This document shows, piece by piece, positions 1,782-53,662 of a DNA stretch of 64,000 nucleotides (position 1 is its first letter; the number at the start of each line of letters is the position of its first letter). The notes under the pieces are model-generated. The model was given only the letters and a program-made list of their open reading frames with translations, was not told the DNA's origin and searched no databases. The stretch spans positions 35,354 to 99,353 of the IMG/VR virus record IMGVR_UViG_3300035698_027665; one strand, written 5' to 3'. The position numbers and the translations under genes were made by a program. The DNA is from a virus.

Positions 1782-2396
1782 TTATCCATTATAAGCTGGT
1801 TGTCCCATAAAGGTTTTGTTTTTGTTTCCACCGGGAGAATAAGCTGGTTGTCCCATAAAGGTGTGATTCTGATTACCTTGTTGATTCTGTTGATTCTGAT
1901 TACCTTGTTGATTCTGTTGATTTTGATTACCTTGTTGATTCTGTTGATTTTGATTACCTTGTTGATTCTGGCTTACTTGCTTGCCATATTCAATAACACT
2001 TTTCAATATGTCATCAAACACGTTTTTTAATTCTGGATCAATACTTTGAGACAATTGGCTCAATCTAGATAGAAGCTTTCCCATTTCTTCTATTTTTGCT
2101 TCTTTAGAAGGAGCGGGATTTACATTGCCATGATAATTTTTCGCAACATCGCCAGCAAAGTTTCGAACCCCTGCTGCTGCCTGTCCTATAGAATTCGCCA
2201 GATTTTCATTTAGCGAATTGTTGAAATTTAATATTTTAATTTTATCTTCGTTTTTTTCTGCATAAGCGATAAGATGATCAATATAATGCTCTGCCACTAC
2301 TTGCGTAGAAATGTCGTTTCCCACATAGTAGGATGCGGCTTTTGTTGTTGTATTAACTTCTTTTTCTTTATTGTAAAAATCTTTAAATGTTTTCAT
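1782..2396 (-). CDS. Tagged hypothetical protein with Gln/Asn-rich tandem repeats
   Basis: The 204-residue product starts MKTFKDFYNKEKE, one of the N-terminal FK-type tags described in the findings. A helical middle part (about 15-140) follows, then four copies of a nine-residue NQQ/GNQ unit encoded by 27-bp DNA repeats. Two copies of a (H/K)TFMGQPAY motif close the protein. Low-complexity Gln/Asn segments are often flexible linkers. A virion or internal-protein role is possible but not shown. It is followed on the same strand by the secreted protease gene's 3' end at 2400. Confidence 0.6.
   Translation of the reverse strand: MKTFKDFYNKEKEVNTTTKAASYYVGNDISTQVVAEHYIDHLIAYAEKNEDKIKILNFNNSLNENLANSIGQAAAGVRNFAGDVAKNYHGNVNPAPSKEAKIEEMGKLLSRLSQLSQSIDPELKNVFDDILKSVIEYGKQVSQNQQGNQNQQNQQGNQNQQNQQGNQNQQNQQGNQNHTFMGQPAYSPGGNKNKTFMGQPAYNG
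1865..1972. repeat. Four tandem 27-bp coding repeats
   Basis: Units at 1865-1891, 1892-1918, 1919-1945 and 1946-1972 differ by only a few bases. They lie in frame within the 1782-2396 gene and encode the nine-residue Gln/Asn-rich unit. There are no spacers, so this is a coding tandem repeat and not a CRISPR array. Confidence 0.9.
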
Positions 2397-2399
2397 AGT

Positions 2400-3200
2400 T
2401 CACTCCCAATAGCTTTCTTTTAGATGTAATTCGTGTTCGTATATGGAATAATCTAATTTTAAAAATTTAGTCCATAACTCTAAAACAATACCTTCATTTT
2501 TATATATGAAATCAAGTTTAATATCTTTTTTATTTAATAATCCTGACATTGGCGTAAAATAAGATATCCCATTAAAAGACGCCATAGAATTGTAGTCAAA
2601 CAAAATAGAACTAATTACGCCTACTAATTCGTAATCAGTATTGTAAACTCCCCCTCCTGAATCTCCCTTGACCACGTACATAGAAGTTCTGTATCTTTTA
2701 TTATTTATGGATGTATCTGTTATTTTTCCGGGTATAAACCTTGGCGTGTCTTTATAGCCCACTCCATAAACATCATTCCCAATGTAAAGTTTGGGTGAAA
2801 AATTAATTTTAGCTGTGGGTAAAGGGAATGGTGTAAGAAAGACAATTACAGCCAAATCTAAACTTGGATATCTAGCATATGTTATGTATGGGAAAGAGTG
2901 ATTTGAGCGTTTTGCAAAAACGAACTTTTCATAATATGCTATTTCCAAAAAAGACTTAGTGTTGAGGGCAACAACATGGTCGCAAGTTATCGCTGTGTTT
3001 AGATAAACATTGCGACTTGTCCTTATACTTTTTACGACAACCCCACTCCCACTTCCAGTTATCCGTTTATCAGTTCCAACTAATATATGCACTGATGGAG
3101 ACAAGGATTGTTGATAAAGAACAATGTCTGCTTTTTGAGCATGCAATTTATTATTTGCGGCAAATAAAAACAGAAACAATACTATAATAATCTTGTACAT
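2400..3200 (-). CDS. Secreted trypsin-like serine protease
   Basis: The 266-residue protein has an N-terminal signal peptide (hydrophobic residues 4-15, likely cleavage after LHA at 21). The chymotrypsin-fold triad is visible: His75 in TCDHVV, Asp115 in SLDLAV and Ser181 in GDSGGGV. The C-terminal 50 residues are helical and of unknown role. A phage-encoded exported protease could act on periplasmic or envelope proteins, or be carried on the particle. The gene ends 3 nt from the start of the next minus-strand gene. The AT-rich stretch before its ATG lacks a clear ribosome site. Confidence 0.85.
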   Translation of the reverse strand: MYKIIIVLFLFLFAANNKLHAQKADIVLYQQSLSPSVHILVGTDKRITGSGSGVVVKSIRTSRNVYLNTAITCDHVVALNTKSFLEIAYYEKFVFAKRSNHSFPYITYARYPSLDLAVIVFLTPFPLPTAKINFSPKLYIGNDVYGVGYKDTPRFIPGKITDTSINNKRYRTSMYVVKGDSGGGVYNTDYELVGVISSILFDYNSMASFNGISYFTPMSGLLNKKDIKLDFIYKNEGIVLELWTKFLKLDYSIYEHELHLKESYWE

Positions 3201-3229
3201 AATTTTATATATTATTTAGGAGTAATAAC

Positions 3230-3478
3230 ATGAGTGGAGAAAATTGTTGCAAAAAAAACCCTGATCTTAAAAACGAATTGAATTCTTGCGAAAACGATTG
3301 CAAAAGCACAGGTTTTTTATGGGATTTGTTTGGCGAAAAAGAAAAGACATTTACCTTAAAAGAAGTAAATGTTTTAGTTGAAAAAATAAAGAAGTTTAAC
3401 GCAGGGGCCATTGATGAATACTTGGACAACCACGTAAACGAAGCTATTAAAGAATGGGTTGACACTTACAGTGAGTGA
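3230..3478 (+). CDS. Small Cys-containing hypothetical protein
   Basis: The 82-residue protein has four cysteines near the N-terminus (CCKK, SCEND, CKS) followed by an amphipathic helical half. A TTAGGAG ribosome site lies 8 nt before the ATG. The next gene starts within its last codons. No family was recognised; the cysteines could bind a metal. Confidence 0.6.
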   Translation: MSGENCCKKNPDLKNELNSCENDCKSTGFLWDLFGEKEKTFTLKEVNVLVEKIKKFNAGAIDEYLDNHVNEAIKEWVDTYSE

Positions 3479-4674: not shown

Positions 4675-4967
4675 ACCCTAGTCCAGCAATTACTTTCGAA
4701 GTCGATTTGACACTTGTAAAGAGTGAAAATATAGGACCAGTAACATCCCAAAAGTCAATAGGAATTAAAAGTGCAAATCAAGCGGATAACGCAACAGCAC
4801 CAAATAGAGTTTCTACGTGGCTTCCATCTTCATTAGGTTCATCTAACGTTAATCTTAAACACGGTGAAACATTCACACTTTATGGATTAGAAGCTATTAA
4901 GTTTAGAAATTTGTACGCCGAAGGCTATGCACCAGAAGAAAGAACTTGGGTGACAGTTTCATCATGA
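4671..4967 (+). CDS. Hypothetical protein, possibly structural
   Basis: This 98-residue, Ser/Asn-rich, beta-strand-rich protein is sandwiched by ATGA overlaps between two tagged small proteins. An AAGGAG ribosome site lies in the tail of the preceding gene. The composition resembles small virion proteins, but no family was recognised. Confidence 0.6.
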   Translation: MNPSPAITFEVDLTLVKSENIGPVTSQKSIGIKSANQADNATAPNRVSTWLPSSLGSSNVNLKHGETFTLYGLEAIKFRNLYAEGYAPEERTWVTVSS

Positions 4968-5392
4968 TTTCTTTTCACAAACTATTAGAAAAAATGATGG
5001 AATCGGATCAATATGATGACGATTCTCAAGATTCCAACGCATTGCTTAAAAGTGGCGTTGAATCTAAAGCTATGGACATGATACGTTCAGGTAAAGATTT
5101 AGAAGGTTCTTTTTGGCAAAATTTTATTAATATGTGTTCTAATTCTGAATCCATGTCTGATTTGCTAGACGTTCCTAAACACAAAATTGCGGAATGGCCT
5201 TCTAAAATACAAGAGTTATTAGACGAAGTTGAAAATTTGGATTCAGAAGATGTAAAAGAAAAGAAAAAAGTGGTTTCTACTGGTGATAACACTTCGTTAG
5301 CTGATCCAAGCGGACCAGACGGTAGCCAACTAGACCAATCAGCCCCGAATAATGTAACAGGAGAAAAAAATGAGTTTAAGTTCAATACATGA
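4964..5392 (+). CDS. Tagged acidic hypothetical protein
   Basis: The ATG at 4964 overlaps the previous stop and gives an N-terminus MISFHKLLEKMMESD, resembling the tag family. A longer frame from a TTG at 4946 is less likely. The 142-residue product is acidic and helical up to about residue 100, with a Pro/Ser-rich flexible end. It overlaps the next gene by 23 nt. It may belong to a set of internal or scaffold-like proteins. Confidence 0.6.
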   Translation: MISFHKLLEKMMESDQYDDDSQDSNALLKSGVESKAMDMIRSGKDLEGSFWQNFINMCSNSESMSDLLDVPKHKIAEWPSKIQELLDEVENLDSEDVKEKKKVVSTGDNTSLADPSGPDGSQLDQSAPNNVTGEKNEFKFNT

Positions 5393-5696
5393 TTTCAAAA
5401 AATCAAAACATGTTCTAAATGAAGAAGATGGAATAGACATGAGTCGTTTAGCAGGTGCAAACAGTCTTTTAGGCACTGGAAGCGAACAAGTCGACACAAG
5501 TTTGTATAATAGATTAAATAGCGCAATAGGAAATTATTTGGAACAAAAATATCCTAATAAACAAGACGCTATAAAAGCTGTAATTGTTGCCACATTGAAA
5601 ATTTTAAATACAGATTTGAATTCGATGATGTCTTCAACAGATTTGCAAAGAAGTTTGCCACAGCAAACAGACGACACACCTGACTCGGAAGTATAA
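5370..5696 (+). CDS. Hypothetical protein of the small-protein operon
   Basis: The 108-residue protein has a strong ACAGGAG ribosome site inside the preceding gene. Its N-terminus (SSIHDFKKSKHVLNEED) is a looser version of the FK tag. A helical middle segment (about 45-90) is followed by a short acidic tail. It is one of five consecutive small genes at 4483-5980 with the same polarity and no gaps. Confidence 0.6.
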   Translation: MSLSSIHDFKKSKHVLNEEDGIDMSRLAGANSLLGTGSEQVDTSLYNRLNSAIGNYLEQKYPNKQDAIKAVIVATLKILNTDLNSMMSSTDLQRSLPQQTDDTPDSEV

Positions 5697-27810: not shown

Positions 27811-29037
27811 ATGAAAGTGATTCGGGGTTACAAAACTGAATTAAAACCAAATAACAAACAACGTTCTGCACTACTGCAACACGCAGGAACAGCCCGTTAT
27901 GTCTGGAATTGGGCATTAAATAGGATTGAGAGCAAAGTCTCTAAACCAAACGCTATCCAACTTCATAAAGAATGGAACGTATGGAAAAGAGATAATGCTG
28001 TCTGGTACAAAGAAGTGTCAAAATGCTCGCCTCAAGAAAGTTTAAGAAACCTAGAAAATGCTTTCAAACACTTTTTTAGAAAGTGTAAAGATAAGAAGAA
28101 AGGAAAGTTTAAAGGAAAAGCAGGTTTCCCAAGATATAAGAATAAACATAAAGGCATTGGTTCAAGTAGATTTACAGGAACAATAAAAGTTGCAGAAAAT
28201 ACTATTCAACTTCCAAGACTAGGAAAGTTAAGATTAAAAGAAAACAGTTATTTGCCAATTAATGCCAAGATACTGTCTTTGACAATAAGCGAAAAAGCAG
28301 GAAAATGGTTTGTGTCGATTCAAGTTGAGGAAAATATTCCAGAGCCAAAGGCTAAGAAAGAAAATGTAGTTGGAATTGATTTAGGAATTAAAACATTAGC
28401 GGTTTGTAGCGATGGAAAAGAATATCAAAACCCCAAAGCATTAAAAACTAGACTCAGAAAATTAAAGATGCTACAATGTTCAGCTAGTAAAAAAGTCAAA
28501 GGTTCTCAAAATAGGAAGAAAGCAAATCGTAAAGTAGCGAGATTGCATTATAAGATAGGAAACATTAGGAAAGATACATTACATAAAATCACTACAGAAT
28601 TGACGAAAACCAAGTCAATTGTTGTGATTGAAGATTTATGTGTATCTGGAATGATGAAAAATCATAAACTAGCTCAAGCGATTTCAGATGTTGGATTGTA
28701 TGAGTTTAGGAGACAATTAGAATATAAAGGAAAATTATATGGCTGCGAAATTCAAGTGGCTGATCGGTTCTTTCCAAGTTCTAAGTTATGTCGTTTTTGT
28801 GGTTGTTTGAATGACGAGTTAACATTAGCAGATCGAGAATGGACTTGTGCTTGTGGTGCTGTCCATGATCGAGATTTGAACGCTGCTAAGAATTTAGAAA
28901 GTCTCGCTGTCAGTTCGACAGAGAGTTTAAACGCTTGTGGAGAAGAAAGCTCTGGTAATAAGAATGTTATTATTGCGAAACTATCTTCTATGAAGCAAGA
29001 AGAAAACGTTAAATCTGCTACTTGTAGATTTTTGTAA
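27811..29037 (+). CDS. tnpB: TnpB-type RNA-guided nuclease (IS200/IS605 family)
   Basis: The 408-residue protein begins like TnpB (KTELKPNNKQ). It has the RuvC residues Asp190 in VGIDLG, Glu274 in VIEDL and Asp353 or Asp355 in HDRDLNAAKN, with zinc cysteines C327/C330 and C346/C348. The end (LNACGEE, KLSSMKQEE) is typical of IS200/IS605 members. TnpB cuts DNA next to a short target motif using an RNA made from the 3' end of its gene. No tnpA transposase is present and only 21 nt separate it from the next gene, so it may be solitary or domesticated. Confidence 0.95.
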   Translation: MKVIRGYKTELKPNNKQRSALLQHAGTARYVWNWALNRIESKVSKPNAIQLHKEWNVWKRDNAVWYKEVSKCSPQESLRNLENAFKHFFRKCKDKKKGKFKGKAGFPRYKNKHKGIGSSRFTGTIKVAENTIQLPRLGKLRLKENSYLPINAKILSLTISEKAGKWFVSIQVEENIPEPKAKKENVVGIDLGIKTLAVCSDGKEYQNPKALKTRLRKLKMLQCSASKKVKGSQNRKKANRKVARLHYKIGNIRKDTLHKITTELTKTKSIVVIEDLCVSGMMKNHKLAQAISDVGLYEFRRQLEYKGKLYGCEIQVADRFFPSSKLCRFCGCLNDELTLADREWTCACGAVHDRDLNAAKNLESLAVSSTESLNACGEESSGNKNVIIAKLSSMKQEENVKSATCRFL

Positions 29038-38285: not shown

Positions 38286-39452
38286 ATGAATATTCCATCT
38301 ATTTTAGACAACGATTTATATAAATTCACTCAACAACAAGCGGTTCTTTCTCTTTATCCTTTTGAAAATGTTGAATACAACTTCATCAACAGAAGGATGA
38401 CGGATAAATTTACAGATGAATGTGTAGATGCCATTAAAGCAGATATTGCGTCAATGTCACAATTGAAGCTGACGGAAGAAGAAAAAAAATGGTTGCCAAA
38501 TCACATTTTTACTCCTGCGTATAAAGAATTTCTTTCCGCTTACAGGTACAATCCCAATGAAATAATTGTCGACAATGAAGGCGGCAATCTATCTATAAAA
38601 GTAGTAGGTACTTGGATACGCACCATTCTGTGGGAAGTCCCTTTAATGTTTATAGTTAGTGAAAATTGGTACAAATACATAGACGTGAATTGGGATATGA
38701 TTGGACAAGGCTATAAAATAAGAAATAAAAACAATAGACTAAGCGAAGCTAATTGTTTATATGGAGATTTTGGGACACGTCGTAGACGTAATTTTGAAAC
38801 CCAAGATTTAATTGTGGCAGAATCCAAATCGTATAAAGATTCTGGTTTCGTGGGAACTAGCAATGTTTACTTGGCTAAAAAGCATAACGTTAATTTTTTA
38901 GGAACCCAAGCACATGAGTGGTTTATGGCACATTCTGTTTTATCTGGGATGAGACACGCTAATCGCAATGCGTTAGACGCATGGGCAAAGGTTTACCGTG
39001 GAAATTTAGGCATTGCATTAACAGATACTTTTGGGTCGCAACCGTTTTGGGATGACTTTGATCTTTATCTGGCGAAATTGTTTGATGGAGTCAGGCAAGA
39101 TTCAGGCAATCCTTTTGATTTTGCAGATGATGCTATAAAACATTATAAATCATTAAACATTGATCCTGCCACAAAAACTATTGTTTTTAGTGACTCGCTA
39201 AATGTCGACACTGCGATTAGCCTTAACAATCATTGTGCAAAAAGAGGAATAAAATGTTCTTTTGGAATAGGAACTCATTTAACCAATGATTTTAACAATT
39301 CTAAATCTTTAAATATTGTTGTCAAAATGACAAAAATAAACAATGTTCCTGTTGTAAAATTGAGTGATGATCCTTCGAAAGCAACAGGAGATGTAGAAGC
39401 AATTGCAGTGGCCAATTGGGTGTTTTATAACAAACCTTTATTTGGGAATTAA
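38286..39452 (+). CDS. pncB: Nicotinate phosphoribosyltransferase
   Basis: The 388-residue protein begins LDNDLYKFTQQQAVL and has FGTRRRR near 158-164, GTSNVYLAKKHNV, GTQAHEW, DTFGSQPFWDDF, FDGVRQDSGNPFDF and SFGIGTHLTND. These are the family motifs in order. PncB joins nicotinate to PRPP with ATP to give nicotinate mononucleotide, the second step of the Preiss-Handler route. The length fits. NadE follows by 4 nt, so the enzymes are cotranslated. A mononucleotide adenylyltransferase is not seen in the window. Confidence 0.95.
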   Translation: MNIPSILDNDLYKFTQQQAVLSLYPFENVEYNFINRRMTDKFTDECVDAIKADIASMSQLKLTEEEKKWLPNHIFTPAYKEFLSAYRYNPNEIIVDNEGGNLSIKVVGTWIRTILWEVPLMFIVSENWYKYIDVNWDMIGQGYKIRNKNNRLSEANCLYGDFGTRRRRNFETQDLIVAESKSYKDSGFVGTSNVYLAKKHNVNFLGTQAHEWFMAHSVLSGMRHANRNALDAWAKVYRGNLGIALTDTFGSQPFWDDFDLYLAKLFDGVRQDSGNPFDFADDAIKHYKSLNIDPATKTIVFSDSLNVDTAISLNNHCAKRGIKCSFGIGTHLTNDFNNSKSLNIVVKMTKINNVPVVKLSDDPSKATGDVEAIAVANWVFYNKPLFGN

Positions 39453-48703: not shown

Positions 48704-48731
48704 TTTACATCTTCAAAATTTAGCTTATAAT
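48704..48731 (+). promoter_or_regulatory. Strong sigma70-like promoter
   Basis: TTTACA at 48704-48709 and TATAAT at 48726-48731 are 16 bp apart. It drives the gene with the TTG start at 48773. Confidence 0.75.
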
Positions 48732-48772
48732 GGGCGAGACAACGATCAATTTTTTTGCATAAGGAATTTATT

Positions 48773-49714
48773 TTGAAAAATAAAACAACTATCTGTTTCG
48801 CCTTCGTCGCTTTGTTTATGTTTATTGGAGATGGATTTGTCCAAACAAATTCCATATTTGATAATTGCCTAACGCCAGAACTTCTTGCAAAATCTCGTAG
48901 TAGTGGAGGTTTTAGAAGTAGTAGTCCAAGCAGAAGCAGAAGCAGTAAACCTAGTTCGTCTTCTAAGCCATCATATTCAGCCCCGCCGTCAAAGAAGGCA
49001 ACTCCAACAAAAAACGCTAAGCCTAGTTCCCCCTCTAAACCTTCATATTCAGCACCGCCGTCAAAGAAACCAGTTCCAAGAAAAAATGTTGCCGCTGATG
49101 CACAAAAAAGAGTAACCAGTAAAAAGACTTTTGAAAAGTCAAATATTCCTAAATCCACTTATGTTTCAAAAAGCGGGAAAGAGATAAAAATAAGTTCCAA
49201 AGCGACAAATACTCAAAGAGTTAGAAGTTTATCGCCTACTGAATATAAAAACAGATCAGTAAGAAGTGAAACCCATTATGTTGATACTTTTGGCTCAAAT
49301 AGATACGGATACTACAGATCGCAACCGTCCATATATATAGGTGGTGGATATTCGTCCCCTTTTTGGTATTCGACATTTGATTTACCGCTGACTATTCAAG
49401 CACTTTGGCTCTGGAATAATCAAAGAACAATTCAATCAGAATTATATCAACAAAGAATGCAAAATGCAGCATTGGCAGCAGAAGTGGCCAAATTGCAAAA
49501 TGGCAATGTTCCTATAAATGAAAACTATGTTCCTCCACAGTTTGAAAAGAATCCTGATTTGATGTACAGTCAAGAATTTGTTGATGCAGCTTACAATCCC
49601 AAACCAGAAAGCCGTGCAAAAACTTTTCTTTGTTGGGGTGTTAGTATTTTCATCGTGTGCATTTTAGTCATAGTGTTGATAAGGTTAGTGTTCACAGTTA
49701 ATGTTACAAAATAA
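48773..49714 (+). CDS. Exported Ser/Pro-rich membrane protein
   Basis: The TTG at 48773 has an AAGGA site 7 nt upstream and yields 313 residues; a TTG at 48755 is less likely. It has a signal peptide (hydrophobic residues about 6-19) and a Ser/Lys/Pro-rich region with two SKPSYSAPPSKK units (about 45-85). A Tyr/Gly-rich part with YYRSQPSIYIGGGYSSPFWY comes next, then a C-terminal transmembrane segment near 284-306. It may act in the envelope soon after infection, since it has an early-type promoter. No family was recognised. Confidence 0.6.
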   Translation: MKNKTTICFAFVALFMFIGDGFVQTNSIFDNCLTPELLAKSRSSGGFRSSSPSRSRSSKPSSSSKPSYSAPPSKKATPTKNAKPSSPSKPSYSAPPSKKPVPRKNVAADAQKRVTSKKTFEKSNIPKSTYVSKSGKEIKISSKATNTQRVRSLSPTEYKNRSVRSETHYVDTFGSNRYGYYRSQPSIYIGGGYSSPFWYSTFDLPLTIQALWLWNNQRTIQSELYQQRMQNAALAAEVAKLQNGNVPINENYVPPQFEKNPDLMYSQEFVDAAYNPKPESRAKTFLCWGVSIFIVCILVIVLIRLVFTVNVTK

Positions 49715-49728
49715 ACGTTTCACTATTC

Positions 49729-49836
49729 TCCGATTGAACTGGCATGTGTGTCACCGCATGAGTTGGCCTAGTTAGGGATTGCACAAACATTGGTGACGAT
49801 GAGCAGTCTTCGGTGGTTCGAATCCACCCTTCGGGA
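49729..49836 (+). other. tRNA-like element with an intact T-arm
   Basis: A perfect T-arm (stem 49812-49816 with 49824-49828, loop TTCGAAT) is followed by seven bases and an A at 49836, as at the 3' end of a tRNA. Pairing of 49729-49733 with 49831-49835 would give part of an acceptor stem, but the span of 108 nt is too long and I find no clear D-arm or anticodon arm. It may be a degenerate, intron-bearing or unusual tRNA, or a captured tRNA 3' end. Confidence 0.4.
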
Positions 49837-49854: not shown

Positions 49855-50661
49855 ATGGCTACATTAGCACAATTGATGCATAGGACGTTCTCTAAAAAAG
49901 AAAGAGAAAGACTAAACAATGAAAAAAACGCAAAGTCCCAAGCTGAAAAAGAAGCAGCAATTGAGGAATCCAAGCCTTTTGAATTAAAATATTTTAATCC
50001 ATTTGGGGTGAAAATAAATTCAATTGCTAAATTGAATCACCCTTTATGGGAAGGCATCCTCTTTAAACTAAGAGGGATTAGAGAAGTTAATAGGATGGTA
50101 GGAAATCAAAAATTCCCACTAGCAGATTATGACTTCATTGGACACACTCTAGATGAGGAAGATGAATCGTCTTTGAGGATAAGATTGATACCTATAGACA
50201 ATCCAGATGGGGATTTTGATCATAAGGCCATTCTTTTGAGACAGGTAAACGCTTTTGGATACGATGCAGATTTTCATAAAAGATTGTCAGCGGATTCCCT
50301 AAGAGATAATTCTGATGAAAGAGAATTGATTTACTACGAACAAGTCACTGATGATGACGGCAATCCTATTGTTGACGAAAACGGCGATGAAGTTTTTGAT
50401 TCTTTCTATCGGGTTGATGACGTTGAAGAATTTTGGGGTTGTGAAACCAATCTTTTAATTGATAAAGATAATAATGGAAAAGTAGACGAAAACGAAATTA
50501 CACATGGTAACGTAGCCATTTGGGATTTTTGGCGACAAACAGAAGATGATTCTGGTGAATTTATTGAATATTTCATAATAGAAATGGACAATGAAACAGG
50601 ATATTTTGAAATTTGGCGTGGGGAAGAAATCGACGATCCCTCTAGAATAGAAATCAATTAG
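49855..50661 (+). CDS. Hypothetical protein with EF-hand-like loop
   Basis: From the ATG at 49855, with an AAGGA site, the product has 268 residues. It has a charged helical start, a middle alpha/beta domain with LKLRGIREV-type strand-helix units and an acidic second half. A loop DKDNNGKVDENE near 217-228 fits the calcium-binding EF-hand consensus, and a second acidic loop (DDDGNPIVDENGDE) lies near 170-185. It may be a calcium-binding structural protein. It heads the membrane-module operon to 52004. Confidence 0.55.
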   Translation: MATLAQLMHRTFSKKERERLNNEKNAKSQAEKEAAIEESKPFELKYFNPFGVKINSIAKLNHPLWEGILFKLRGIREVNRMVGNQKFPLADYDFIGHTLDEEDESSLRIRLIPIDNPDGDFDHKAILLRQVNAFGYDADFHKRLSADSLRDNSDERELIYYEQVTDDDGNPIVDENGDEVFDSFYRVDDVEEFWGCETNLLIDKDNNGKVDENEITHGNVAIWDFWRQTEDDSGEFIEYFIIEMDNETGYFEIWRGEEIDDPSRIEIN

Positions 50662-50670
50662 GATAAATCC

Positions 50671-51219
50671 ATGTTTAAATTGTTGAAAAAAATCTTTGGA
50701 CATTCTTCAAGTACTGTAGAAGAAAAATCAGAAACTCCTTTGGAAAGATATCAATTACTGATATCTTCTGAAAATGAAAAACTTATCAAGGCCCGCAAGG
50801 CTCTAAGCGACAAAAGTGAATTCATTAGGCAACAAAAAAGAATTTGCAAAAGAATTGAAAATGATGCAAATTTACTTTTGTCTATTTATAAAAAAGACGA
50901 ATTCAACAAAGAAATTAAAGAGAAATATGATTTCAAATTGTTGGATTTAGAGTCTATTAAAACAAAAATAAAAGAATTGTCTAATGAATTCAAAGAAGAC
51001 GAAAAAAACATTGAAGATTATACTTTAAAAATAGAAGAATTTAAAACACAAGCCAAACGTCTAAACATAGACTTGAAAATGGCAGGCGTTGAAAACGACG
51101 TGTCGCAGCTTGACACTTTTAACGGTTCGGGCGAGAAAATGAATGATGCCAAAAACCAAATTACGGATGATATATCAGAATTAAAAGCAAAAGCAAAAGC
51201 AAACAACATGTTTAAATAA
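50671..51219 (+). CDS. PspA-like coiled-coil protein (tentative)
   Basis: The 182-residue protein starts with an amphipathic basic helix (MFKLLKKIFG) that could bind membranes. A long coiled coil follows (about 25-135) and it ends with DDISELKAKAKANN. This layout and end recall PspA/Vipp1 proteins, which keep the membrane sealed under stress. The match is by pattern only; an ordinary coiled-coil protein is possible. The potassium channel gene starts 12 nt downstream. Confidence 0.5.
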   Translation: MFKLLKKIFGHSSSTVEEKSETPLERYQLLISSENEKLIKARKALSDKSEFIRQQKRICKRIENDANLLLSIYKKDEFNKEIKEKYDFKLLDLESIKTKIKELSNEFKEDEKNIEDYTLKIEEFKTQAKRLNIDLKMAGVENDVSQLDTFNGSGEKMNDAKNQITDDISELKAKAKANNMFK

Positions 51220-51230
51220 GGTAAATTAAT

Positions 51231-52004
51231 ATGCAATTATTAAAAAAAATTATGAATTCTTCAATCCAACCGTTGATTTGGATTAGCGTAATTTTATATT
51301 TCGTTGAGCTTTCTACAGGAAGCGAAAATGGTCGATCAGGATGGTTGGGGTTTCTTTGGATAGAACGATTTATAGCATGTTTTTTTACGATAGAATACTT
51401 AGTTAGATTACACAAAGACAAAACCAAATATGCAATTTCAGCTTTAGGAATTATTGATTTAATTGCTATCATTCCTTTTTGGATTGGTTTTTTCATCCCT
51501 GTCTCAATGTTGCCTTTGATTAGAACCCTACGTATTTTACGACTTTTAAAATTGTTTAGATACAATAGATCGCTTCAACTAATAGCTTTGGCTTATTATA
51601 AATCATTTCATCAATTAAGATTTATAGCATTTGCCACGCTCGTTGTAGGGTTGTTTTGTCTAGCTGGAATATATGAAGTAGAACATAAAGCACAACCAGA
51701 TGTTTACGATGGATTTTTTAATACTTTTTGGTATTTTGTTGTTACCATAACGACAGTAGGTTATGGCGACATGTTTCCGATCACTGTAATAGGAAAGTCG
51801 TTGGCAATGATGCTGTTGTTCATCGGCATAATGACCTTTTCTGGAATAGTTGGTATTGTTGGGACTTCTTTAAATGATGTTTTAAATGATGAAATAAACC
51901 CCGACATTGATCCAATAAAAATGTTCAAAGAAGAAAAAGAAAGACAAAAAGAAATTAAGAAAATAGATAGCAATTGGCAGGATGATCAAGAAACCAAAGT
52001 GTAG
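51231..52004 (+). CDS. Voltage-gated-type potassium channel
   Basis: The 257-residue protein has about six membrane segments. S4 carries regularly spaced charges (Arg98, Arg101, Arg104, Lys107, Arg110 in IRTLRILRLLKLFR). The pore loop has the selectivity filter TTVGYGD at 174-180, followed by S6 (about 188-212). The cytoplasmic tail is charged. These are the complete features of a bacterial Kv channel, which works as a tetramer in the inner membrane. It is likely functional. It may alter membrane potential during infection. An AAGG site lies 10-13 nt before the ATG. Confidence 0.93.
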   Translation: MQLLKKIMNSSIQPLIWISVILYFVELSTGSENGRSGWLGFLWIERFIACFFTIEYLVRLHKDKTKYAISALGIIDLIAIIPFWIGFFIPVSMLPLIRTLRILRLLKLFRYNRSLQLIALAYYKSFHQLRFIAFATLVVGLFCLAGIYEVEHKAQPDVYDGFFNTFWYFVVTITTVGYGDMFPITVIGKSLAMMLLFIGIMTFSGIVGIVGTSLNDVLNDEINPDIDPIKMFKEEKERQKEIKKIDSNWQDDQETKV

Positions 52005-52024
52005 TCATCTTTGCGAAAAACTCC

Positions 52025-52052
52025 TTTACACAAGCTTGCTTTGTACTAGAAT
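52025..52052 (+). promoter_or_regulatory. Sigma70-like promoter
   Basis: TTTACA at 52025-52030 and TAGAAT at 52047-52052 are 16 bp apart. The gene at 52099 follows with an AAAGGGA site. Confidence 0.65.
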
Positions 52053-52098
52053 GATAGGTGACGGATGTTGTGAAAGGATTTTTTGAAAGGGATTTAAC

Positions 52099-52458
52099 AT
52101 GGGACCAGAAGATTTTAAAAAAGGCAATGTAGTTCCTCGTGGACGTTATGACCGTTGCCCTGTATCTTTACAGATAGAATCTATTGCAATAGCAGGCGAT
52201 CAAGAAGCTGCTGATCGTATTGCAAATCACATTTCTACATGTGAAGAATGTAAAAAAGAGGCAGTTCGAGTTTACGAAGAAATAAAATCAAATAACAAAA
52301 TATTCACAAAGAAAAATTTCTTTACGGGTATGGGGATTTTTGGAGCAATAGGGTTAGCATTGGCAGCAAATGGAGTTAGCGAAGCTATACAACATAGAAA
52401 TGTTGCAACAGGCGGCGACCTGCCTTTTTGGCGAAAATATTTGAAAAAAGATGACTAA
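52099..52458 (+). CDS. Zinc anti-sigma-like membrane protein
   Basis: The 119-residue product has Cys20 in DRCPVS and then ADRIANHISTCEECKKE near 42-56. The H-x3-C-x2-C pattern is typical of zinc anti-sigma factors (ZAS, zf-HC2). One transmembrane segment follows near 73-90. It may bind a sigma factor or another regulator at the membrane. It has its own early-type promoter, so it may help to switch host transcription early. No sigma factor gene is visible nearby. Confidence 0.65.
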   Translation: MGPEDFKKGNVVPRGRYDRCPVSLQIESIAIAGDQEAADRIANHISTCEECKKEAVRVYEEIKSNNKIFTKKNFFTGMGIFGAIGLALAANGVSEAIQHRNVATGGDLPFWRKYLKKDD

Positions 52459-52461
52459 TTT

Positions 52462-52842
52462 ATGTTTTTTAAAATAATTTTAAATACAAAAACTAATTGT
52501 TTTAAATGGCAATTAGACGATTTTACATTTGAAGTTCCTATAACTGTTTTTACGGAAATGGTCCACTATATTGAAAAAACACAATTAGGAGACAGCCCCA
52601 TCTCTCTCCCGCAAATAGAAATATATAAGAAAAATGAAAAATATAAAATTTGTTTGACAGACGTATTACAAATGGACGATGGGCAGAACAGGACTAACGT
52701 TGTTTTTAGAAACAAAAACAACACAAAAGCATTTGTAATTGACAAAAACGGTTGCTATAATTGGGCTAATTACATACGTGCTGTTAGGTACAATCAGCCC
52801 GAATTGACAAAAGAGAATGAAAGATTAGAAGAAAATGATTAA
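52462..52842 (+). CDS. Hypothetical protein
   Basis: The 126-residue protein has mixed alpha/beta character with a short N-terminal strand and an acidic C-terminus. It starts 3 nt after the previous gene and overlaps the next by 8 nt. No motif or family was recognised. Confidence 0.55.
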   Translation: MFFKIILNTKTNCFKWQLDDFTFEVPITVFTEMVHYIEKTQLGDSPISLPQIEIYKKNEKYKICLTDVLQMDDGQNRTNVVFRNKNNTKAFVIDKNGCYNWANYIRAVRYNQPELTKENERLEEND

Positions 52843-53662
52843 TAAAGTAGTAGTCCATGATGGATCAGCACACGCAGACGATTTTTTGTCGTGTTGTATT
52901 CTTTTAAAAAAATTTAATAATGAAATTCTTATTTTAAGAAGAAGCCCTACAGAAGAAGACTTTCTTGATGAAAACACTTGGGTTGTTGACCAAGGCAGGA
53001 AATTCGATCCAAATCTTAGAAATTTTGATCATCACCAAATGAAGGGGCCACCATGTGCTTGCACTATGATAATGGATTATTTATTTGATCCTATTTATAG
53101 AACGGTGCTGTCTTGGCCTTCATATGTCGAAGAATATGACACTGGTGGTCCTTTAGGCGTTGCTACGCTGTTGAAGACAAGCAGTTTGAATATACCAGAG
53201 TATGCAGCGAATCCTGCTACAACAGCACTTGTAACGGCCTTTTCTAAAGTCGAGTTTTTAGATGATGGCTGGTTAAGAGAAGCGATGTATTGTATTGGCG
53301 AATTTATATTTTCTACTTTAGACGACATAATAAAAGGGATAGAATGTTTAGATAAATTTTCTAAAATAGAAGAATATAGAGGATTGAAAGTTTTAATAAT
53401 AACGGGCATCGAGTTACCAGAATCATCTGAACATGTTTCTATTACTAAATCTTGGTCAAAATTAAGAAACCTCTCTTTTGATGTTATTTTGAATGATGAT
53501 AAAAGAACTCCCGATTCATATCGATTGATACGAACAAAAGAAAAATCAATAAAATTCAAAGACAATGATCTTTGCCTATTCACACATTCTAGTGGCTTTT
53601 TGACATCTTTTAAAAACATAGATGATTGGAAAACCATTATAGATTTTTCTTTAGAAAAATAA
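52835..53662 (+). CDS. MYG1/GAMM1-like metal-dependent hydrolase
   Basis: The 275-residue protein begins INKVVVHDGSAHADDFLSCCIL, then has WVVDQGRKFDP and NFDHHQM near residues 62-68. The N-terminal HDGxxHADD and later FDHHQ motifs are the metal-binding signatures of the MYG1 (UPF0160) branch of the DHH-like superfamily. MYG1 is a 3'-5' RNA exonuclease in eukaryotes. This protein is a little shorter than usual. It could trim RNA or act on nucleotides. Confidence 0.78.
   Translation: MINKVVVHDGSAHADDFLSCCILLKKFNNEILILRRSPTEEDFLDENTWVVDQGRKFDPNLRNFDHHQMKGPPCACTMIMDYLFDPIYRTVLSWPSYVEEYDTGGPLGVATLLKTSSLNIPEYAANPATTALVTAFSKVEFLDDGWLREAMYCIGEFIFSTLDDIIKGIECLDKFSKIEEYRGLKVLIITGIELPESSEHVSITKSWSKLRNLSFDVILNDDKRTPDSYRLIRTKEKSIKFKDNDLCLFTHSSGFLTSFKNIDDWKTIIDFSLEK

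Follow-up and report, generated by a model that had tools for sequence, protein, structure and literature searches.

A 64,000-nt stretch of viral DNA (the window; bases 35354–99353 of the 99,353-base IMG/VR virus record IMGVR_UViG_3300035698_027665) carries an operon that pairs a PspA-like coiled-coil protein with a Kv-type potassium channel. The pairing of PspA with a channel is found in distantly related phages, and this suggests that phages bring equipment of their own with which the host membrane is kept electrically intact. The favoured explanation, to which about an even chance is given, is that the locus is a phage-carried membrane-maintenance operon, with a PspA-like scaffold as its basis and a depolarisation-sensing Kv potassium channel as an addition. 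No description of a phage operon joining PspA to a potassium channel was found in the accessible part of the open literature.

An earlier note, made from the sequence of this DNA alone, had proposed a complete Kv-type channel, and this is confirmed. The channel sequence matches PF00520 (Ion_trans) with an E-value of 1.7e-22 (80.3 bits; curated cut-off 25) and PF07885 with an E-value of 4e-11. Its residues 3–247 align to positions 10–249 of the 254 positions in the PHROG 7872 profile (6.9e-38). PHROG 7872 is annotated as "unknown function", and the profile also matches in 11 of 14 cellular control genomes; it is therefore a general channel profile and is not restricted to phages. Relatives in the PDB include Kv4.2, Kv1.2, Shaker and KvAP-type chains. 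The S4 segment displays five basic residues, one at every third position (R98, R101, R104, K107 and R110), with the S2/S3 counter-charges at E55 and D76, and the selectivity filter reads TTVGYGD. A voltage-dependent potassium current would be expected of a Kv-type channel.

The three closest channels are in the viral records designated L095 (42% aa identity), L108 (43%) and L109 (44%), the latter two found by a scan with the window and L095 channels; in the alignment with other channels, the identity of the three to the window channel is 41%–43%. Residues E55, R59, D76, R98, R101, R104, K107, R110 and T174–D180 are invariant over these four channels. The four share 39%–45% identity among themselves and 19%–30% with six other aligned channels, and a further scan with all four as queries added no new close channel. 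The S6 segment of the window channel is FSGIVGIVG. The ALPA motif in S6 is absent from all four channels and is present in five of the six others, and the window channel has no S6 proline gate motif of either type (PVP, or ALPA here). Such a motif is common in Kv channels, but it is not defining for the archaeal KvAP. The C-terminal tail motif DPI[EK]xF is found in three of the four, and a CxxCG-type tail ends four of the six others. By sequence, the window clade forms a distinct voltage-sensor channel subfamily, in which the voltage sensor and filter are retained while the remainder has diverged (~40% identity). Gating charges and filter are kept in four phages in combination with an altered S6.

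The PspA-like protein was also anticipated, as a coiled-coil protein upstream of the channel resembling PspA, and here the family assignment is an indirect one. A profile of six phage PspA-like proteins gives the 182-aa sequence a score of 27.2 bits, which is reached by none of 1000 plain shuffles (maximum 17.9) and none of 1000 shuffles that preserve the heptad register (maximum 16.5). Pairwise comparisons are unconvincing: out of 1000 shuffles of each kind, the score with the L095 protein is reached by 3 plain and 2 heptad shuffles, that with L080 by 45 and 85, and that with L109 by 81 and 122. Among the phage proteins, the L108 protein is a PspA by the Pfam criterion (PF04012, PspA/IM30; 50.7 bits, 2.3e-13, cut-off 33.9). 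Those of L102 (32.8 bits, 6.7e-8), L095 (26.4 bits, 6.4e-6) and L103 (16.4 bits, 0.0074) score below this cut-off, and those of L080 and L109 show no match to PF04012. With a mixed profile of bacterial and phage PspA sequences, L080 scores 21.4 bits (shuffles at most 5.9) and L109 15.5 bits (shuffles at most 11.9). The 182-aa protein is termed PspA-like because it is homologous to phage proteins of which one, that of L108, is a PspA by the Pfam cut-off; it is not itself filed in PF04012.

The PspA fold is an alpha1/alpha2–3 hairpin with additional helices after it. For the 182-aa protein AlphaFold gives PspA-like helices at positions 23–75, 80–149 and 155–181 (mean predicted local distance difference test score, pLDDT, 76.9; predicted template modelling score, pTM, 0.53). 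A Foldseek search with the model places Vipp1 entries at the top with a probability of 1.00 and weak E-values of 0.06–0.2. Structural alignment with PspA (4whe) gives a Z score of 11.6 and a root mean square deviation of 2.4 over 116 residues, values tied with those of generic coiled coils, from which the structural aligner does not separate PspA. Membrane binding and assembly into rings or rods would be expected from the family. A tblastn search with the clearest copy yielded no phage-borne PspA in a collection of 50,697 phage records.

The phage of the window belongs to a group of large myoviruses to which no named phage in the collection is closely related, as judged by comparisons of its tail sheath. 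The sheath (807 aa) resembles those of myoviruses such as SP-15 and Aeh1, with 31%–38% identity over at most half of its length. A sheath relative is encoded in 182 IMG/VR stretches; in the best 80 of the 182, which were kept, identity is mostly 56%–65% across almost the full sheath, and the contigs are up to 254 kb long. A survey of kin was based on 50 records, i.e. 49 of these 80 sheath loci together with L095. L108 and L109 lack the sheath of the window phage and have terminase genes (L108, phrog_15, 1.2e-42; L109, phrog_2, 3.9e-36, and PF03237, 6.9e-6), and they therefore represent other phage lineages. The four phages with both PspA and channel span three lineages.

In all four (window, L095, L109 and L108), the PspA-like gene is directly upstream of the channel or is separated from it by one small open reading frame. 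It stops 11 bases ahead of the channel in the window, and in L108 the two reading frames overlap. The intervening open reading frame encodes 81 aa with predicted transmembrane segments in L095 and 95 aa rich in Gly and Ser in L109. The conserved unit is larger than the earlier note had proposed, as it also takes in the two genes that precede the PspA-like gene and encode a Ser-rich protein and a beta-rich 268-aa protein (Table 1). Six records (window, L095, L080, L102, L103 and L109) share the order Ser-rich gene, 268-aa-type gene, PspA-like gene, and three of them have no channel nearby.

The Ser-rich protein has a predicted N-terminal hydrophobic segment, a conserved coiled region and a C-terminal transmembrane segment. 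Homologues are present in L095, L080, L102 and L103, and in a leave-one-out hidden Markov model (HMM) comparison the window copy scores 222.9 bits (best of 200 shuffles, 8.1). A tblastn search that used the copies of L102 and L103 located the L109 homologue. The coiled region of the L103 protein (2633–3367, minus strand) weakly matches PspB (TIGR02976, 0.0016), and this protein is perhaps a functional analogue.

The 268-aa protein scores 158.8 bits by the same method (shuffles at most 5.9) and 170.6 bits once L109 is included. For both upstream families, with homologues in L095, L080, L102 and L103, leave-one-out scores are 90–236 bits and shuffles stay below 9. The AlphaFold model is beta-rich (pTM 0.73), and fold searches with it in the PDB and a viral library gave nothing convincing (best, VIA, Z 3.2). 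There is an EF-hand-like loop, DKDNNGKVDENE, at residue 203, and the loop is present in six of seven homologues. At the N-terminus, the pattern NPxxxxIGxxxxxDTL is suggestive of DUF2491/DUF4178 without being significant. DUF4178 (PF13785) was rejected, as none of eight records matches at E≤10, and DUF2491 (YjfK, PF10679) has no match in the window record at the same threshold. A distant relationship to DUF2491 is possible from the sequence pattern.

Table 1. Features of the PspA–channel locus and its surroundings in the window.
Feature	Position in window	Strand	Basis
Promoter-like site TTTACA-16-TATAAT, upstream of module	48704..48731	+	11/12 consensus matches, best of 21
Ser-rich protein, 319 aa, TTG start uncertain	48755..49714	+	leave-one-out HMM, tblastn
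Beta-rich protein, 268 aa, predicted cytoplasmic	49855..50661	+	leave-one-out HMM, AlphaFold
PspA-like coiled-coil protein, 182 aa	50671..51219	+	phage-profile homology, predicted helices
Six-transmembrane Kv-type potassium channel, 257 aa	51231..52004	+	PF00520, PHROG 7872
S4 gating charges, codons R98 to R110	51522..51560	+	invariant in 4/4 aligned channels
Selectivity filter TTVGYGD, codons T174 to D180	51750..51770	+	invariant in 4/4 aligned channels
Promoter-like site TTTACA-16-TAGAAT ahead of 52099 gene	52025..52052		consensus scan
Zinc anti-sigma-like membrane protein, 119 aa, neighbour outside module	52099..52458	+	HxxxCxxC, one transmembrane segment

The composition of the module varies among records. 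In L109 a phage-encoded band-7/SPFH gene (4691–5563; PF01145, 2.2e-19) heads the operon directly 5′ of the Ser-rich gene, and the operon is tightly packed, with genes that overlap or almost touch. In L103 a 103-aa DUF350-like membrane protein (2275–2583, minus strand; PF03994, a weak match with E = 0.009) is inserted within the module. Near-duplicate records of L073/L074 display a frameshifted Ser-rich gene and a 268-aa-type gene with no PspA-like open reading frame after it; what follows is a fragment that, by reading, we take to be TnpB-like. Remnants resembling TnpB likewise lie after the 268-aa-type gene of L096. Among the 50 kin records searched, the 268-aa-type gene is present in six. 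Within this phage group the module is a piece of optional cargo.

The proposed mechanism is as follows. Kv channels open on depolarisation and repolarise the membrane by potassium efflux, and in E. coli PspA is reported to bind phospholipids and to repair proton leaks. The phage PspA-like protein, if it acts as its family does, would coat a damaged or leaky inner membrane and limit the loss of protons. The Ser-rich secreted or transmembrane protein could be its membrane anchor or sensor, and the beta-rich protein with the EF-hand loop could be its cytoplasmic partner. When the membrane depolarises, the channel would open, potassium would leave the cell and the potential would be pulled back. 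The infected cell may in this way be kept energised until a large phage has finished, despite leaks caused by injection, superinfection or membrane-attacking defences. The proposal presupposes that the genes are expressed during infection, that the products assemble, that the channel conducts and that the phage gains a benefit. Should the module work in this way, it would connect an old question, namely why bacteria induce PspA upon phage infection and membrane leaks, with a phage-owned version of the machinery, and it would offer compact genetic systems for joint tests of PspA and a voltage sensor.

A more specific form of this proposal holds that the operon, in unrelated large phages, is a membrane life-support system that counters membrane-puncturing or depolarising defences; it would consist of a PspA/ESCRT-III-like coat linked to a depolarisation-gated potassium valve and to calcium-sensing (EF-hand-loop) and secreted partners. 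This more specific form is rather unlikely. If true, it would represent a new class of counter-defence, one that repairs the cell instead of inhibiting a defence protein.

Several findings weigh against a membrane-maintenance operon. The protective role is read from protein families. The 182-aa protein has no direct match to PF04012, and with the mixed profile it scores 1.4 bits, below its shuffles. The resemblance of the 268-aa protein to DUF2491 is not significant by hhalign (probability 14.6, P 0.0018). The pair of genes 5′ of PspA in L108 is similar by eye to that of the window, with no profile support for homology. The channel is found in one of the 50 kin records (L095) and is absent from the other 49, so that it is an optional part of the module. 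Without ALPA in S6, the four channels may differ in gating. Many of the records, in addition, are fragments.

Outside the four phages, a PspA-like neighbour was not found with the mixed profile in 14 other channel loci (13 contigs, L002 and L112 being the same); little weight attaches to this, as the PspA-like gene of the window is itself missed by that profile.

The closest published parallel, as far as the available text of PMC11237479 (Ravi et al. 2024) goes, is a bacterial operon of PspA, a potassium channel and DUF2491. That text describes a PspA–CesT/Tir dyad whose operons are joined to band-7 proteins, or alternatively to DUF350, DUF4178 and a spermidine synthase-like protein, or to an ATP-grasp ligase, a potassium channel, DUF350, DUF1190 and DUF2491; band-7 and DUF350 are named there as PspA partners. 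The same portion makes no mention of phage-encoded PspA, though one figure has a viral column.

The bacterial operons also include polyamine genes, and a version without a channel is yjfIJKLMC of E. coli. To the extent that the bacterial operons are described in the available text, they and the phage operon alike combine a gene of the PspA family with a potassium channel and with a partner that is beta-rich or uncharacterised, and the DUF350-like gene of L103 and the band-7 gene of L109 extend the likeness. They differ in several respects. CesT/Tir (DUF2170), ATP-grasp and DUF1190 were not recognised in the phage versions, where no profile search for these was made. The phage channel is a six-transmembrane voltage-sensor type, whereas the bacterial one is described in that text with intracellular ligand sensing.

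In appearance the phage operon is a variation on the bacterial PspA–channel theme, either independent or captured. Capture of a bacterial operon is not supported by the data, as the DUF2491 likeness is merely suggestive and no bacterial relative was found. Two scans of genome contigs gave no bacterial relative of the module, and these negatives are weak because the scans require short near-exact blocks. A tblastn search of plasmids with five module proteins yielded nothing, or only channels of less than 60% identity.

Potassium channels are known from other viruses. The Kcv channels of chloroviruses, which are viruses of algae, are very small and have no voltage sensor, and to our knowledge no PspA partner accompanies them; the likeness to the window channel is that of a viral potassium channel. 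Halorubrum virus Humcor1 and Dulem virus 33 do have six-transmembrane Ion_trans channels, with 25%–26% identity to that of the window and no PspA-like gene nearby by the mixed profile. In the phage collection 13 records have a relative of the channel, each less than 60% identical; PLE2, Dulem virus 33 and Humcor1 are among them. The rarity of such channels in tailed phages, as claimed in the earlier note, is thus borne out, yet they were already known. The available part of PMC6163359 lists several phage potassium channels, including a 259-aa protein of Lactobacillus phage PLE and, from phages of Vibrio, Mycobacterium, Acinetobacter, Pseudomonas and Streptomyces, mostly two-transmembrane channels. 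The potassium selectivity filter is the feature in common with the window channel. The PLE2 channel is also of the Ion_trans type and of roughly 260 aa, but it is 25% identical to the window channel and has other neighbours, and the window clade is set apart by its S6 and, in three of four, by its C-terminal tail. The label "Acinetobacter phage MD-2021a" was rejected as a phage channel source: in CAKLQH020000004.1, tamB and acnB lie beside the channel, as in a bacterial contig. A second record under this label is CAKLQF020000002.1.

Superinfection exclusion is an improbable alternative, and it is the one that survives best. The channel would depolarise or clamp the inner membrane and so block DNA injection by a second phage, and the PspA-like protein would limit damage to the host. 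Chlorovirus potassium channels are held to depolarise the host, and the distant channels of PLE2 and Dulem virus 33 lie between repressor-like regulators and an integrase, a typical position for host-altering genes. Those channels, however, are 19%–26% identical to the window clade, and the HMM used shows no PspA beside them; a PspA partner implies protection of the potential, not its collapse.

A somewhat smaller chance is given to a potassium or osmotic auxiliary function, in which the channel would tune cytoplasmic potassium so that a large genome can be replicated or packaged, PspA being a general stress gene carried as a passenger. The carriers do include large phages or phage fragments, in records of 99 to 254 kb. 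Transporters would serve a plain need for potassium better, however, and the intact gating charges imply voltage control, while the pairing with PspA recurs.

A role in the virion or in late assembly is quite improbable. The genes are located 5–8 kb before the tail sheath gene, which might indicate late expression or packaging, and the module precedes the sheath gene in the window, L095, L080 and L073/L074. This position is not kept elsewhere: the module is at ~17–21 kb and the sheath at ~151–153 kb in G044, the corresponding positions in G027 are ~114–117 kb and beyond 175 kb, and L108 and L109 have no such sheath. It is equally improbable that unrelated cargo genes are adjacent by chance. 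Large phages bear many cargo genes and most relatives lack the channel, but order and adjacency are retained in lineages with different surroundings, and reading frames overlap in L108 and L109.

The least probable alternative is lysis timing, in which the channel or the PspA-like protein would set the membrane potential for triggering of holins; holins do trigger upon loss of the potential, but no holin or endolysin was seen beside the module in the window, L095, L108 or L109 (open reading frames were read; family models were run on part of them). Both the superinfection block and lysis timing, which the earlier note had raised, are guesses, and no finding puts either of them ahead of a protective role in which the potential is held.

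The earlier note had also assigned to its module for membrane potential or envelope stress a third gene, that of a zinc anti-sigma-like membrane protein downstream of the channel. For the channel and the PspA-like gene the idea of such a module is supported: they stand together in four phages of three lineages, so that the lack of co-occurrence by which the earlier note would be refuted is not observed for this pair. The third gene is rejected as a member. Homologues of it were searched for by tblastn in 92 loci (four of the 92, which are stretches of the window record, are not listed) and are present in none, and no counterpart is seen 3′ of the channel in L095, L108 or L109. The protein does display an HxxxCxxC motif (HISTCEEC), which we take to be a feature of the zf-HC2 zinc anti-sigma family, and one predicted transmembrane segment at positions 75–93. 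It matches no Pfam family, including zf-HC2, at E≤0.1 and no NCBIfam family at E≤1. No neighbouring sigma factor was matched in family scans that covered some of the open reading frames in the window.

The promoter claimed for this gene corresponds to a consensus-like site, but 21 such sites were observed in the region, with 15.8 ± 4.5 expected by chance. The site upstream of the module is likewise suggestive only. Between the Ser-rich and 268-aa genes, at 49812–49828, there is a perfect T-arm-like hairpin, GGTGG TTCGAAT CCACC, similar to the 3′ half of a tRNA. It was rejected as a tRNA or known RNA, with no match by ARAGORN at standard settings or in Rfam; at mitochondrial settings ARAGORN showed three low-quality tRNA shapes in the hairpin region, which were set aside.

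Elsewhere in the window, a 408-aa open reading frame at 27811–29037 encodes a protein that by reading resembles an IS605-type TnpB, and the product of 38286–39452 is taken, likewise by reading, to resemble nicotinate phosphoribosyltransferase, with possible NAD-metabolism genes after it. The open reading frame at 52835–53662 encodes a 275-aa protein whose first 70 residues match MYG1/UPF0160 (PF03690, 1.6e-12).

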